Of a stretch of 14,987 nt of DNA, positions 7,517 through 14,987 are shown one piece after another. Below the pieces are notes generated by a model. It worked only from the letters and a program-made list of their open reading frames with translations, searched no databases and was not told the origin of the DNA. The translations under genes were made by a program, and so were the position numbers. This DNA is from a bacterium (GTDB taxonomy: Bacteria > UBA9089 > CG2-30-40-21 > SBAY01): positions 1-14,987 of the forward strand of contig JBFLYA010000089.1 of NCBI GenBank assembly GCA_040757115.1. Direction: 5' to 3'. Numbering within the stretch: the stretch's first letter is position 1; the number at the start of each line of letters is the position of its first letter.

Positions 7517-7774
7517 CCAAAAATCAAAATGCAAAAAGCAAATATAAAAATTACATATCAAAATGTAAAATTATCTCTTTCCTTTCAGCGTTAAAATACT
7601 TGAAGCAAAGATATTACCAAATTCCTCCAACTCTTTGAGAAACACTATCCTTTGGCAACTTATCGATGAATTCTATAAATCGCAGAGTAAAGTTATATCG
7701 TCTTTTCTCGAAATCCTTTTTGAAATTTGATTTGTAATTTTGCATTTTGATATTTGATATTTAATATTTATTTG
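7517..7774 (-). repeat. AT-rich repeat element containing a four-helix-bundle remnant
   Basis: Both flanks are short-period AT-rich tandem sequences. On the right side (minus strand) they read as heptamers of the type AAATATC/AAATATT before an ATGCAAAATTAC. On the left side they read as TTTGC/TTTTGAT-type units. The flanks are approximately inverted with respect to each other and enclose the degenerate gene at 7571-7745. The boundaries are approximate. The arrangement resembles other palindromic elements in this window, which have short-period arms and a variable centre. Confidence 0.55.
7571..7745 (-). pseudogene. Internally deleted, frameshifted four-helix-bundle (S23/23S-IVP-like) protein
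   Basis: An ATG at 7745 opens a 43-codon frame that includes DFEKRRYNFTLRFIEFIDKL and PKDSV, the first helix typical of the TIGR02436/S23 four-helix-bundle family, and then stops at 7614-7616. In the neighbouring frame, the last codons before a stop at 7571 read ELEEFGNIFASSILTLKGKR, the usual C-terminus of the same family. The roughly 60 middle residues (the RSGTSIGANYIEA-type segment) are absent. The sequence therefore looks like an N-terminus joined out of frame to a C-terminus by deletion. Intact members are about 115-130 aa, and some are encoded in 23S rRNA intervening sequences; their function is uncertain. A 43-aa product could still be made, but no clear ribosome binding site is visible. 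Confidence 0.68.
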
Positions 7775-7810
7775 TTGTCTCCCCCAAATCCTATTTTGCA
7801 GAACCCTATG

Positions 7811-7852
7811 TAATTAGCAATTGGTGAATGGTAATTAGTTACCCATTACTCC
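7811..7852. repeat. Heptameric repeat/hairpin at the 3' end of the TPR gene
   Basis: The plus strand reads as six degenerate 7-bp units (TAATTAG, CAATTGG, TGAATGG, TAATTAG, TTACCCA, TTACTCC). ATGGTAA and TTACCCAT can pair across a 4-nt loop. The stop codon of the TPR gene lies inside the last unit, so the repeat contributes the end of the gene. It may act as an mRNA 3' hairpin, but no U-tract follows in the minus orientation, so it is not a standard terminator. Confidence 0.55.
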
Positions 7853-10655: not shown

Positions 10656-10864
10656 GTAACCGTTCAGGTGGTAATTTACCGCAGAGACGCAGAGAAACAG
10701 AGAAGACATAGAAATAAAGTAACTATTCAGCCACTGATTAACACGGATTAGCACGGATAAAAAAATAAAATCAGTGTTTCATCTGTGTCCATCTGTGGCT
10801 GAATAGTTATCAATAAATTTTAATTTTTTCTCTGCGTCTCTGTGTCTCTGCGGTGAACGGTTAC
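10656..10864. repeat. Outer palindromic element with GTAACCGTTCA ends
   Basis: The ends are the exact inverted pair GTAACCGTTCA (10656-10666) and TGAACGGTTAC (10854-10864). Inside them, the left arm (CCGCAGAGACGCAGAG, then AACAGAG) and the right arm (CTCTGCGTCTCTGTGTCTCTGCGG) are degenerate 8-bp tandem repeats in inverted orientation. Between the arms lies another complete palindromic element (10719-10810). The whole forms the panC 5' leader. Confidence 0.8.
10719..10810. repeat. Inner palindromic element with GTAACTATTCAGCCAC ends
   Basis: The left end GTAACTATTCAGCCAC is matched by GTGGCTGAATAGTTA at the right end. The arms contain degenerate units of about 10 bp (CACTGATTAA, CACGGATTAG, CACGGATAAA and, inverted, ATCTGTGTCC, ATCTGTGGCT). 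The left 43 bases are identical to the left 43 bases of the element at 11721. It is located between the arms of the outer element, as expected for an insertion into a pre-existing copy or for template-switching growth. Confidence 0.8.
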
Positions 10865-10878
10865 GAAAGGTTAACAAA

Positions 10879-11721
10879 ATGGAATTAATTAATAAAATTA
10901 AACAGATGAAAGAGAGAAGTGATGAACTTCGGCGTCAGGGTAAAAAAATAGGCTTTGTGCCGACGATGGGAGCATTACACGAAGGACATTTATCCTTAAT
11001 GCGTCAGGCTAAACTAAAGAATGATGTTGTCATCATCAGTATCTTTGTCAATCCTATTCAGTTTGTCGAGGGAGAGGATTATCAGACTTATCCAAAAGAT
11101 TTTATCTGTGATGTAGAACTGGCTAAAAAAACAGGTGTAGATATTATATTTTATCCCAAGGTTGAGGAGATGTATCCTGATAAACCTTTAACTTTTGTCA
11201 ATGTAGAAAAATTAACCAGAGGGCTTTGTGGAAAATTTAGACCCAGCCATTTTCAAGGTGTAACGACTGTCGTAACAAAATTGTTTAATATTGTTAATCC
11301 GCACACCTCATATTTTGGACAAAAGGATTATCAACAGGCTTTAGTTATTAAACAGATGATTAAGGATTTGAATTTTGACATCGAGCTTGTGATAATGCCT
11401 ATTGTTCGGGAGAAAGATGGTCTGGCATTAAGCTCAAGAAATACTTATTTGAACAAAGAAGAACGAAAATCCGCTCTGATTTTATATAAATCATTACATC
11501 TGGCAAAAAAAATATTAGATTCAGGGGAAAGACTTTCAAGAAATATTATCCTGGCGATGCAGGATTTAATTCAAACAGAAAAGTTAGCCTCGATTCAATA
11601 TATTGAAATAGTCGATAGCAAAACATTAGAACCAGTTGAACTAATAGAAAAAAAAGTGCTCATTGCCTTAGCGGTTAAAATTGGCAAGACAAGATTAATT
11701 GATAATATTTTAATATCGTAG
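10879..11721 (+). CDS. panC: Pantothenate synthetase (pantoate--beta-alanine ligase)
   Basis: This 280-aa protein has the normal length for the family. It is the cytoplasmic ATP-dependent enzyme that joins (R)-pantoate and beta-alanine to form pantothenate, the coenzyme A precursor. The nucleotidyl-transferase signature PTMGALHEGHLSL (28-40, HIGH-like), the SIFVNPIQF pantoate-binding segment (54-62), YFGQKDYQQ (145-153) and the KMSKS-like LALSSRNTYL (182-191) are all present. The start is ATG 10879, with AAAGG 9 nt upstream, just beyond the right end of the palindromic leader element. No panB or panD is adjacent. Expression is predicted from the consensus promoter at 10623-10650, through a highly structured leader. 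The stop codon abuts another repeat element of the same family. Confidence 0.97.
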   Translation: MELINKIKQMKERSDELRRQGKKIGFVPTMGALHEGHLSLMRQAKLKNDVVIISIFVNPIQFVEGEDYQTYPKDFICDVELAKKTGVDIIFYPKVEEMYPDKPLTFVNVEKLTRGLCGKFRPSHFQGVTTVVTKLFNIVNPHTSYFGQKDYQQALVIKQMIKDLNFDIELVIMPIVREKDGLALSSRNTYLNKEERKSALILYKSLHLAKKILDSGERLSRNIILAMQDLIQTEKLASIQYIEIVDSKTLEPVELIEKKVLIALAVKIGKTRLIDNILIS

Positions 11722-12048
11722 TAACTATTCAGCCACTGATTAACACGGATTAGCACGGATAAATAGCAGAAGGCAGAGAGCAGAGGACAGAGAGCAGAGG
11801 GCAGAAGGCAGAGGGCAAAGGCGGGTTGTCCCCCGCTGGCGGGGGATTAAGGGGGTGGAAATCTCTTCCACTGGCACAGGTGAAATCAGGCTAAAGCCTG
11901 CGGCTACCAGCCTTCCCGAGTCCCGAACCCCGAGTCCCGAGTCCCGATTTTCAGAAGAACCCTTCAGCCTAATTACGGACAGGGAAAACGGACACGGATT
12001 ACGAATTTTTAGTGTTTCATCCGTGTCCATCTGTGGCTGAATAGTTAC
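11721..12048. repeat. Composite palindromic element between convergent panC and yaaR genes
   Basis: The ends GTAACTATTCAGCCAC (11721-11736) and GTGGCTGAATAGTTAC (12033-12048) are exact inverted copies. Their adjoining arms match the 92-bp element at 10719, but here about 240 bp of unrelated repeat 'cargo' separates them. The cargo contains eight heptamers of the GCAGAGG type (11766-11821), a GC-rich perfect hairpin (11829-11846), CAGGCT-AA-AGCCTG (11887-11900) and five heptamers of the CCCGAGT type (11915-11949). The last G of the panC TAG and the TAA stop of yaaR fall within its termini. It may serve as a bidirectional 3' structure. Open frames across it are not genes. Confidence 0.8.
11829..11846. 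repeat. GC-rich perfect hairpin TCCCCCGC-TG-GCGGGGGA
   Basis: This is an 8-bp perfect stem with a 2-bp centre, strikingly GC-rich compared with the AT-rich surroundings. It lies in the cargo of the composite element and is followed by a second G-run. Its composition suggests a different origin from the flanking arms. Confidence 0.7.
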
Positions 12049-12524
12049 GAATATAAATCCATTAATAATCCTTGAATCATTTCTACCTTAGCCGCAATGT
12101 TAATGGGATTAATTTGTGTCTTGAGGACTCCTTCGGTTAATTCAGACAGATTTTTATTAATCTCTTTAATGATGATATTTACCTGTCGCTGACCAAGTTG
12201 TGCCTGTAAAGGTCGAACTGTAGTTGTTGTTTCTTCCAGCGAATAGAGGTTTTTAACTACTTTTTCCATAAATGTCTGGACAAGATGTCTATATTGGGTA
12301 AGATTTTCATAGATAGGGGATTGAACTAAAATTTTTCCTTGAGCTTCAATTTTATTAAGCAGGTCATCGAGGTATAATTTTAGTTTTTCTTTAGTTGCGG
12401 TTTTCAATTCTTCATCAAATGTTTTTCCATCGATTTTTGGCGGGGCATTTTTTTCTTTAATTGAGTCTGTTTGAAAAAGACTTTTATCCGCCATAGCCTC
12501 AAGTGGGATATTTGTATTTATCAT
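12045..12524 (-). CDS. YaaR/DUF327 family protein
   Basis: This 159-aa soluble helical protein matches the DUF327 (YaaR) family. It has the central LKLYLDDLLNKIEAQGKILVQ and YRHLVQTFMEKVVKNLY segments and the characteristic C-terminus IQGLLMDLY. Family members are about 145-160 aa, and their function is not known. The start was set at ATG 12524 because GGGAG lies 8 nt upstream; the GTG-initiated extension to 12572 has no ribosome binding site and reads into the intergenic region after cimA. It follows the citramalate synthase gene by 68 bp on the same strand, so co-transcription is likely, though no functional link to isoleucine synthesis is evident. The final Ser codon and TAA are contributed by sequence at or inside the terminal GTAAC of the neighbouring repeat element. 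Confidence 0.85.
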   Translation of the reverse strand: MINTNIPLEAMADKSLFQTDSIKEKNAPPKIDGKTFDEELKTATKEKLKLYLDDLLNKIEAQGKILVQSPIYENLTQYRHLVQTFMEKVVKNLYSLEETTTTVRPLQAQLGQRQVNIIIKEINKNLSELTEGVLKTQINPINIAAKVEMIQGLLMDLYS

Positions 12525-12592
12525 TTGATTACTCCCTTTTCGTCCAGCAATTCTAATTATGGCAGAAAACACTTGAGATACATTACGATACC

Positions 12593-14173
12593 TTACACTT
12601 TTTCAAAATTAGAATTGCTGCGTTTCGCCAATATGTATTCAATAGAATCGACGAGGGCTAACCATGATGCATCAATAAGATTTTCTGAGACCCCAACCGT
12701 GCTCCAGATATTCTTTCCATCTGTAGATTCAATCAATACTCTGACCTTTGCGGCGGTGCCCTCTTTGGCATCCAATACCCTGACTTTATAGTCAGTTAAA
12801 CGCACTTCTTTTAGTAAGGGATAAGATTCTTCTAATGCCTTTCTCAGGGCAGTATCTAAGGCATGAACAGGACCATCTCCTTCGGCAACTATATATTTTT
12901 GTTTGCCTTTTACATCTATCTTAATAATTGCATCAGATGAAAGCTCCCTATTTCTATTTTCGACAATAACCTCAAATTTCTTTAGAGTAAATGCAGATTT
13001 ATATTTACCTAACACCTTTTTAATGAGCAATTCAAATGAGGCGTCAGCGGCTTCATATTGGTATCCTTCGTCTTCTTTTTCTTTGATTTTAGCCAGAATT
13101 TTTTGTGTTTGAGGAGTATCTTTTGACAGGTCTATTTTCATCTCCTTTGCTTTTTCCAGAAGGCTGGTTTGTCCGGCTAATTCTGAGATTAATATTTTTC
13201 GTTCATTTCCAACTAATTCTGGCTGGATATGTTCGTAGGTTTTTGGATTTTTTTGCACCCCGCTGGCATGGACACCGGCTTTATGAGCAAAGGCAGAAGT
13301 GCCAACATAAGGTTGATGTGATTGAGGGACAATATTAGCCATTTCTGCAACAAATCTCGAGACCTCAGTCAGGCTTTTGAGTTGGTCATCTGAAATACAA
13401 TTCAGCCCCATTTTAAGTTTCAAGTTTGGGATGATGAGGCATAAATCGGCATTACCACATCTTTCACCGTAACCATTGATAGTCCCCTGGATATGCGTGG
13501 CACCCAATTTTACCGCCATAATAGAATTAGCCACCGCCATTCCTGAATCATTGTGGGCATGAATACCTACAGGGACTTTAATGACTTTCAGGACTTCTTT
13601 GATTGGCTTTTCTATTTCATAAGTCAACATTCCACCATTGGTATCGCAAAGGGCAATAACATCTGCACCCGCTTTCTGTGCCTCTAAAATAGTCGCTAAC
13701 GCATATTCTGGATTTGCCTTATAGCCGTCAAAGAAATGCTCGGCATCATAAATTACCTCTTTACCCTTTGATTTCAAATAACGGACAGTATCTTGAATTA
13801 ACTTTAAATTTTCTTCTAAAGAGATATTGAGTGCCTCGTGAACATGCAAGTCCCAACTTTTCCCAAATATACAGATTGCCGGGGTTTGTGCATCTAATAA
13901 ATTTAATATACTCGGGTCTTCTTCAACCTTACATCTCGCCCTTCGTGTGCTTCCAAAAGCCACTATCTTCGCCTTTTTAAGTTTAATATTCTTTATTTCT
14001 GCAAAGAATTTCGTTTCTTTTGGATTTGAGCCAGGCCAACCACCTTCGATATAATCTACCCCTAAATGGTCTATCATCTGAGCAATCTTAATCTTCTCCT
14101 TAACCGCAAAGGATATTCCTTCTGTTTGAGCTCCATCGCGGAGCGTCGTATCATAAATTATAACCTTTTTCAT
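12593..14173 (-). CDS. cimA: (R)-citramalate synthase (LeuA-like, CimA/TIGR00977 type)
   Basis: This 526-aa enzyme of the DRE-TIM metallolyase family has a length typical for the TIGR00977 citramalate synthase group. It condenses pyruvate and acetyl-CoA to (R)-citramalate, the first step of the threonine-independent route to 2-oxobutyrate and isoleucine. Visible signatures are [16 protein letters not shown] (7-22), [13 protein letters not shown] (41-53, characteristic of this branch rather than LeuA), the metal-binding HAHND (205-209) and [11 protein letters not shown] (234-244). A C-terminal LeuA-type regulatory domain follows (about 390-520: [22 protein letters not shown]...[15 protein letters not shown]), where isoleucine feedback inhibition would act. 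GGAGG 7 nt before ATG 14173 supports the start. A 2-isopropylmalate synthase is the nearest alternative but fits less well. Confidence 0.93.
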
Positions 14174-14202
14174 AATAAACCTCCATTCAACCTTATCTCC
14201 TT

Positions 14203-14223
14203 CAAGTAATGGCTGAACACTTG
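14203..14223. repeat. Short GTTCAGCCA-containing inverted repeat at the cimA transcription start
   Basis: The flanks are CAAGT and ACTTG (perfect 5-bp inverted repeat), and the centre contains GTGTTCAGCCATTAC on the minus strand. It resembles the GTAACTATTCAGCCAC end of the larger repeat elements and lies at the start site predicted from the -10 box at 14225-14230. It may be a relic of the family or a small operator. Confidence 0.4.
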
Positions 14224-14224
14224 T

Positions 14225-14253
14225 ATTATACCTTAATTAACAAAAAAAATCAA
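14225..14253 (-). promoter_or_regulatory. Promoter for cimA-yaaR
   Basis: On the minus strand, TTGATT (14248-14253), a 17-nt spacer and TATAAT (14225-14230) make a good sigma70-type promoter. Transcription would start near 14218, giving a leader of about 45 nt. That is too short for a T-box or leader-peptide attenuator, so none is indicated. Confidence 0.65.
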
Positions 14254-14286
14254 GGAAAATTTTTTACCTGCACAGGTGGAAAACTT

Positions 14287-14363
14287 TCAGATTTCTCGCA
14301 AAGGCGCAAAGGACGCAAAGAAAAAACCTCCTTTACGACCTTTGCGTCCTGGCGAGAGAAAAT
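14287..14363. repeat. Palindrome with CGCAAAGG tandem arms
   Basis: The left arm (TTCTCGCAAAGGCGCAAAGG, then ACGCAAAG) is inverted in the right arm (CTTTACGACCTTTGCGTCC, then TGGCGAGAGAA), with a roughly 10-bp AT-rich centre. The arms have an 8-9-bp period. Flanking ACCTG-CA-CAGGT on the left (14266-14277) and GTTCAGGTGG on the right (14371-14380) relate it to the other elements with GTTCAGG ends. Confidence 0.75.
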
Positions 14364-14601
14364 TGTAAGCGTTCAGGTGGTGTAACAAAAGGAGATGTGG
14401 AGATTAAGGAGATAGGGAGATATTATTAAAAAAATTGAAATTAATAGAAACTAATAGAAATTTATGGAAATTTGTTGTTTTCCACAATCAATTTCTACCT
14501 ATTTCTATAAATTTCAATCTATTTCTATTATCTTATCTCCATATCACTCTTATCTCCTTATCCCCTTTCTTACACTTTTGATATATAGCCTGAACGGTTA
14601 C
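14364..14601. repeat. Palindromic element with GGAGATA and AATAGAAA arms
   Basis: The left end GTAAGCGTTCAGG and the right end CCTGAACGGTTAC are inverted near-copies. Behind each end comes a run of GGAGATA-type units, then AATAGAAATT-type units of about 10 bp, in inverted imperfect orientation around a centre near 14474-14480. Its right half (14478-14601) is repeated exactly, inverted, at the right edge of the window. Confidence 0.7.
14478..14601 (+). repeat. Left arm of a perfect 124-bp inverted repeat
   Basis: Comparing base by base, this segment is the exact reverse complement of 14864-14987, with no mismatch seen. The match stops at 14602/14863 on the inner side. On the outer side it reaches the window edge, so the full length is unknown. 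The arms are separated by 262 bp. Confidence 0.9.
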
Positions 14602-14632
14602 AGAAAATTTCTATAAAAGAATCGACACCTTT

Positions 14633-14662
14633 ATTATACCGCCATAACTTCTTTAATTTCAA
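14633..14662 (-). promoter_or_regulatory. Promoter-like sequence reading into the repeat element
   Basis: On the minus strand, TTGAAA (14657-14662), an 18-nt spacer and TATAAT (14633-14638) resemble a promoter. It lies between the arms of the 124-bp inverted repeat and points into the element ending at 14601, toward cimA. It may be an additional upstream promoter for cimA or a source of a small structured RNA; alternatively it is a chance match in AT-rich DNA. Confidence 0.4.
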
Positions 14663-14670
14663 GAGGTTAA

Positions 14671-14697
14671 ATATTATCCGTGTTCCTCTGTGGCTTT
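14671..14697. repeat. Relic of the CACGGAT/GTGGCTGAATAG repeat arm
   Basis: The segment ATCCGTGTTCCTCTGTGGCT matches the right arm of the elements ending at 10810 and 12048 (ATCCGTGTCCATCTGTGGCT) with two differences, and then diverges. The opposite arm is missing. Confidence 0.6.
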
Positions 14698-14745
14698 ATA
14701 CCTCAAAATTTCGGTGGTGTCTGAAAATAACTCATCTATGCAGAT

Positions 14746-14860
14746 TTGGTGTCCAAAAGGGGATAAGGAGATAAAGGAAGATATGGAGATTATTCATTGT
14801 CCTTTCCAAAATTTTAGAATGAATTTATCTCCATATCTCCATAATCCCCATATCTCCTTT
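14746..14860. repeat. GGGGATAAGGAGATA palindrome between the 124-bp arms
   Basis: AAAAGGGGATAAGGAGATA on the left and TCCCCATATCTCCTTTT on the right are inverted imperfect copies, with GGAGATA/TATCTCC units throughout and an AT-rich centre near 14797-14820. It belongs to the same unit family as the arms at 14364-14601. It accounts for the open frame across this region, which is not a gene. Confidence 0.6.
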
Positions 14861-14863
14861 TCG

Positions 14864-14987
14864 GTAACCGTTCAGGCTATATATCAAAAGTGTAAGAAAG
14901 GGGATAAGGAGATAAGAGTGATATGGAGATAAGATAATAGAAATAGATTGAAATTTATAGAAATAGGTAGAAATTGATTGTGGAAAA
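14864..14987 (-). repeat. Right arm of the perfect 124-bp inverted repeat, cut by the window edge
   Basis: It starts with the family end GTAACCGTTCAGG and runs as the exact reverse complement of 14478-14601 to the last base of the window. Because the window stops inside a repeat, a contig break or an assembly fold-back at this place cannot be excluded. Confidence 0.9.

Follow-up and report, generated by a model that had tools for sequence, protein, structure and literature searches.

How can palindromes that share one end carry unrelated arms? The question is raised by the window, which is the whole stretch of 14,987 nucleotides analysed here and corresponds to contig C89 of a draft genome of 4.3 Mb (462 contigs, 99.9% complete). 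All the palindromes named in an initial annotation of this DNA are present, with ends that are exact or carry one mismatch, and we corrected the start of one element from 14364 to 14365. The features are as follows (no strand is given for palindromes and duplications).

10656-10864: palindromic element with IS66-type ends and CRCAGAG arms, probably a gene-less derivative of a GxxExxY unit, with a second palindrome nested inside
10656-10667, plus strand: IS66-type terminal inverted repeat GTAACCGTTCAG, exact match
10853-10864, minus strand: IS66-type terminal inverted repeat GTAACCGTTCAC, one mismatch
10719-10810: palindrome nested inside 10656-10864, ends of the GTAACTATTCAG type, arms CACTGATT/CACGGAT, DNA fold z -10
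11721-12048: element ending in GTAACTATTCAG, with CACGGAT arms around a composite interior of heptamer arrays and other repeat-like stretches
14290-14362: CGCAAAG palindrome, gene-less and without IS66 ends, also in the sister species (L088)
14357-14364: left copy of the target duplication AGAAAATT, single copy at the empty site of the sister species
14365-14601: IS66-ended element with GGAGATA arms, inserted after the split from the sister species (8-bp duplication, empty site)
14602-14609: right copy of the target duplication AGAAAATT
14749-14862: GGAGATA palindrome without IS66 ends of its own, limits approximate, matching the arms of the units L285/L288
14864-14987, plus strand: second copy of the 14365-14601 element, inverted and truncated where the contig ends, forming a 99% inverted repeat with 14478-14607

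Exact ends lie at 10656, 10719, 11721, 12037-12048 (minus strand), 14590-14601 (minus strand) and 14864. Ends with one mismatch lie at 10799-10810, 10853-10864 and 14365-14376, the last reading GTAAGCG at 14365.

The shared end and its IS66-type elements

We searched the genome for the end GTAACYRTTCAG and found 677 exact matches, where the reversed control gave 2; this assembly is broken at repeats, so its numbers of copies and of transposases are minimum values. The sister species has 706 matches against 2 for the reversed pattern. Genomes of the phylum have between 0 and ~700 matches each, with raised counts in many of them, not all; outside the phylum the counts are at background level. 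Within the window, 15 end matches with ≤2 mismatches compare with 3.1 expected, and none of 200 shuffles reached 15; taken singly, the degenerate matches at 190-208 and 14203-14223 are too weak to judge. An exact match at 2648 lies within coding sequence and is probably due to chance. For the end and duplication analysis we read 726 kb of the genome in stretches. The widened end GTAA[CG][CTG][GA]TTCA[GC] has 202 exact matches there (~278 per Mb), and the flanking DNA is unique as far as the G of GTAAC. The first 40 kb of the largest contig, C1 (L065, L066), have no exact ends and may be foreign or merely element-poor.

Exact 8-bp duplications surround 29 of the 133 candidate facing-end pairs, where 0.4 were expected and 200 shuffles gave at most 3, and 8 bp is the only duplication length that stands out. 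Many pairs are without a duplication, among them 11721-12048 and 10656-10864, around which an 8-bp duplication was looked for. At the position of 14365-14601, the sister species keeps an uninterrupted site with one copy of AGAAAATT. A query with the joined flanks of 29 elements recovered further uninterrupted sister sites (e.g., L047 3060, L079 397, L057 9751 and L061 14892), and for the remaining elements the sister sites were occupied or not found. These precise empty sites bear out the proposal of the initial annotation that the ends mark the limits of variable insertions.

The same ends are carried by IS66 elements. In this genome, L117 (893-2455) is a PF03050 transposase element with GTAACCGTTCAG at both ends and a gene with two in-frame stops. 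Elsewhere in the phylum, L123 encodes an intact IS66 transposase of 468 aa between GTAACCGTTCAC ends, L124 is an IS66 element with GTAACTATTCAG ends, the IS66 element L122 has ends with one change, and L121 matches at one end only. This fragmented draft, which breaks at repeats, has 5 IS66 matches, mostly broken, and no exact duplication was seen around the IS66 copies inspected. Known IS66 elements have GTAAGCG ends and 8-bp repeats (PMC11946415), and the end of ISDge4, of the ISBst12 group, is GTAACTGCTCAGCA (PMC12898284). GTAA ends combined with 8-bp duplications therefore point to IS66 as the transposon type.

We conclude that the shared end, GTAAC[C/T][G/A]TTCA[G/C], is an IS66-type inverted repeat. 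Because the same ends occur on IS66 elements, together with 8-bp duplications and an empty site, the elements are MITE-like and template switching is not needed. By sequence, those of the window classify as IS66-type MITEs (GTAA ends, and duplications for some) and are candidates for mobilisation. They resemble the IS66 family (ISBst12 subgroup) and its MITEs in the inverted repeats starting with GTAA, the 8-bp target duplication, the single-ORF DDE transposase with PF03050 and the non-autonomous copies without transposase. They are unlike them in the hundreds of copies with many unrelated interiors, in the two end classes that pair with themselves, and in having interiors that come from another kind of unit. 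The initial annotation had suggested, as one of two possibilities, a non-autonomous family recognised at its conserved end, a reading upheld by the duplications and by the ends shared with IS66.

Facing neighbouring ends pair by class (CG-CG 34, TA-TA 19 and CG-TA 3, against 26 mixed pairs expected), and each class is carried by an IS66 element in the phylum. The composite element L062 11027-11572 has ends of different subfamilies and an exact duplication. Any two facing ends can thus apparently move together, which is how one end would come to enclose different interiors. Such variety behind a common end has been described for Ac/Ds of maize, where 11-bp ends and 8-bp duplications are common to ~900 elements with mostly unrelated filler (PMC3260210). 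Unlike the present elements, Ac/Ds is a eukaryotic hAT transposon, and its filler is not described as matched inverted arms. Given this precedent and ends that behave as transposon inverted repeats, we find no support for the earlier view that the palindromes are incompatible with MITE amplification. A second composite, L047 5489-5907, also has ends of different subfamilies, and its duplication matches at 7 of 8 positions.

Construction of the palindromes by replication or template switching that starts at the conserved end, as suggested earlier, or by a Y1/REP transposase has in its favour the palindromic tandem arms and six Y1 matches in the genome, but is hardly credible in view of the exact 8-bp duplications, the precise empty sites and the ends common to IS66 elements. 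Y1 elements are not known to make 8-bp duplications. The Y1 transposases that the initial annotation proposed to look for do exist in this genome (L041-L046, with L041 in an open frame of 1120 codons), and the 8-bp duplications speak against them as the driver.

GxxExxY genes between inverted arms

The initial annotation was right that the arms need an explanation separate from the ends: the arms belong to GxxExxY gene units. Translated interiors contained pieces of GxxExxY protein, with the arms as flanks of the GxxExxY gene. PF13366 has 65 matches in this genome (G000) and 55 in the sister genome. L080 4650-5145 is a whole unit, with IS66 ends, the duplication TTATACAC, arms and an open GxxExxY frame. 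Among the units inspected in the same phylum, nine have IS66-like ends on both sides and most others are without any. The arm word lies just inside IS66 ends in 50 of 61 clusters for CRCAGAG and 15 of 17 for CACGGAT, and in only 1 of 19 for CGCAAAG. Genomes of other phyla that lack the end have the CRCAGAG word too, often in palindromic form.

The gene of the units belongs by HMM to the GxxExxY family (TIGR04256/PF13366, PDDEXK_3), with matches above cut-off and conserved GxxExxY, D and ExK residues; this membership concerns the units and not the gene-less palindromes of the window. The proteins conserve D, ExK and QxxxY positions and have weak similarity to Cas4. We take this pattern to fit a PD-(D/E)XK nuclease of the RecB/Cas4 type, and we infer that the GxxExxY protein is PD-(D/E)XK-like and a putative nuclease. 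A structure prediction from one viral copy reached a pLDDT of 40. What sets the units apart from the family as annotated is the inverted flanking arms, of which we found no description in the open-access literature searched (weak evidence of absence). A search for the arm words in open-access literature likewise returned nothing.

Over its outer 63 and 53 bp, 10656-10864 shares 97% and 98% identity with the two ends of L262, a GxxExxY unit of the same genome, and the junction at the nested palindrome 10719-10810 is seen again in other copies. The arms of 14290-14362 are 94-96% identical to the CGCAAAG unit L301. Those of 14365-14601, which has ~40 close copies in the sister genome, are 87-90% identical to the GGAGATA-type units L285/L288, and 14749-14862 also matches the arms of L265, a unit in another phylum. 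No sampled GxxExxY unit matched 11721-12048 at the threshold used; its CACGGAT word is that of another GxxExxY subfamily. Judged by these identities, palindromes of the window match arms of GxxExxY units that belong to three subfamilies or more. As DNA, 10656-10864, 10719-10810 and 14365-14601 have a strong potential to form hairpins (z ~ -10 to -12), and 11721-12048 has a weaker one (z -3.8).

The interior of 11721-12048 (11760-11960) contains heptamer arrays of GGCAGAGG and TCCCGAG, and stretches (CCCCGCTGGCGGGGG, AGGCTAAAGCCTGCGGCTACCA) that resemble further dispersed repeats. The first base of this element completes the stop codon (11719-11721) of a panC-like gene. At the panC-like gene of the sister species, a different element starts earlier by a few bases, and the reading frame apparently continues into it; the site upstream of that gene holds a different element with its own duplication, CGTAATCA.

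We assessed the arms at each GxxExxY locus by reverse-complementing the right flank and scoring the left flank against it. For 35 loci outside the phylum, mean complementarity was 20.5 within a locus; mismatched loci gave 9.6, and pairing with other loci from the same genome gave 10.0. Of the 35, 24 were above the 95th percentile of mismatched pairs. A replication with 22 loci of other genomes gave 20.3 against 9.7 (p 2.5e-10; 13 of 22 above the 95th percentile), with control values of 9.3 at random positions and 8.8 at ~1 kb away. In both sets together, 37 of 57 GxxExxY loci outside the phylum exceed the 95th percentile and about a third do not. A strong PF13366 match was present in 24 of 33 genomes with the CRCAGAG word and in 4 of 47 without it, a comparison in which 11 of the 33 genomes had been chosen for their many words and host biology was not controlled. 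Inverted arms also surround plasmid copies of the gene in Gemmatirosa, Bernardetia, Sphingomonas and Bacteroides, and the Treponema copy has a short inverted arm only. GxxExxY genes are few on viral contigs; both copies detected there are likewise flanked by inverted arms. Outside the phylum, genome G058 repeats the arm of one of its units dozens of times, beside four genes. No clear target duplications surround the units that lack IS66 ends (9, where 4.2 were expected and shuffles gave up to 9).

If the elements were plain IS66 MITEs, the ends would be everything and the interiors arbitrary filler, with arms unrelated to one gene family. The ends, the duplications, the composite elements and the Ac/Ds filler precedent (PMC3260210) are as such a reading predicts. 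We nevertheless consider it very unlikely, as these arm words are found in other phyla where the ends are missing, adjoin GxxExxY genes there and track their subfamily. The CRCAGAG, GGAGATA and CGCAAAG kinds contradict it; 11721-12048 does not.

One site relates unit and palindrome directly. In genome G001, L301 is an arm-GxxExxY-arm unit of the CGCAAAG kind without IS66 ends. The orthologous site of the present genome (contig C5) has the same flanks and arms, with the gene absent and a short palindrome left. Unit and palindrome are thus the same thing in two states, and the direction of change would be from unit to palindrome if the gene was lost. A second orthologous site (L289, and C323 of G001) is strongly rearranged. 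Homing would run in the opposite direction: the gene would invade existing gene-less palindromes that share its arms, and the palindromes would not stem from gene loss. The pair of sites is compatible with either direction, and some homing endonucleases have PD-(D/E)XK folds. Two observations make homing improbable. The limits of the small IS66-ended palindromes resemble those of deletion derivatives of whole units, and the unit of Sphingomonas parapaucimobilis lies between fabD and fabG, where its relative S. paeninsulae has a short gap without arms.

Arm words, protein subfamilies and hosts

Subfamily arm words include CRCAGAG, GGAGATA and CACGAATT. Placed on a tree of the protein domain, nine arm words require 11 changes, against a mean of 34 (minimum 30) in shuffles; the tree, built on 117 columns, is poorly resolved at many forks, and some of the words were labelled by eye. 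Outside the phylum alone, the words require 11 changes against 20.4 (minimum 17). With the host genome as the label on the same tree, 40 changes compare with 46 (minimum 41). Protein identity and arm similarity are correlated outside the phylum (rho 0.33, permutation p 0.001), and the correlation within genomes is not significant (49 pairs, rho 0.18). Among pairs between genomes at 65-70% protein identity, 58% share arm sequence and the DNA 300-430 bp away is at background. The arm word differs between loci and appears to follow the protein subfamily, not the host.

These data bear on whether the protein recognises its arms or whether the arms, e.g., terminators or insulating hairpins, are co-inherited passively with the gene. 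Passive co-inheritance is possible but rather doubtful. The units are compact, so that arm and gene would travel together, and a word that tracks the protein is by itself no proof of binding. On the other side, arm similarity persists at 60-70% protein identity between genomes while other DNA is scrambled, and the two arms of one locus stay matched though arms vary between loci. Recognition by the protein is therefore favoured over passive linkage, given arms that are shared at 65-70% identity beside outside DNA at background.

A probable two-layer explanation and its likeness to REP/RAYT

We regard an explanation in two layers, IS66 ends around interiors from GxxExxY units, as probable. In the first layer, an IS66-family transposase (ISBst12-like, single-ORF) would act in trans and move any facing pair of ends, leaving 8-bp duplications. 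In the second, the DNA between the ends would be mostly derivatives of GxxExxY units, in which the gene is flanked by inverted arms of a degenerate 7-10-bp tandem word and each subfamily has its own word across phyla. The palindromes, which in many phyla are dispersed with no IS66 ends around them, would be gene-less versions of these units. The present phylum has some units and palindromes enclosed by IS66 ends, with the common TTCA(CC) at the arm edge as a possible point of joining. The GxxExxY protein may recognise or cleave its cognate arms and so maintain or spread the unit and its gene-less copies, as is thought for RAYTs with REPs.

The wider claim is of a selfish or mobile unit common to many phyla: a small GxxExxY nuclease that would recognise its own inverted arms, with word-specific subfamilies and gene-less palindromes as dependants, and that may also move outside this phylum. 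We give this claim about even chances. The units share with REP/RAYT systems (PMC2817692) a DNA-processing gene between inverted palindromic repeats, a repeat type congruent with the protein phylogeny, and many gene-less repeats per gene. They differ in that the protein is PD-(D/E)XK-like GxxExxY and not a Y1 (HUH) transposase, and in that the arms are tandem words, not GTAG-headed hairpins of 20-40 bp, and in their spread over many phyla. As the gene of the units is PF13366 and no Y1 transposase, they are not members of REP/RAYT and are similar in architecture only.

If this is true, the units would be a second, independently built REP/RAYT-like system that accounts for periodic palindrome families in unrelated bacteria. 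Abundant and unexplained periodic palindromes of many phyla would be tied to one gene family that was formerly little beyond an annotation label. A protein-to-DNA-word code would become testable, in which each GxxExxY subfamily should prefer its own arm. Within one phylum, IS66 ends could make hundreds of modular elements out of such units, and some of these elements abut or end genes.

Two further repeats of the window are without GTAAC ends. A periodic inverted repeat of the GTAGGTAG type lies at 2093-2247, with ~90% identical repeats in the sister genome. At 7519-7773 there is a palindrome of the short AT-rich word CAAAATG, with a neighbouring repeated stretch at 7810-7850.
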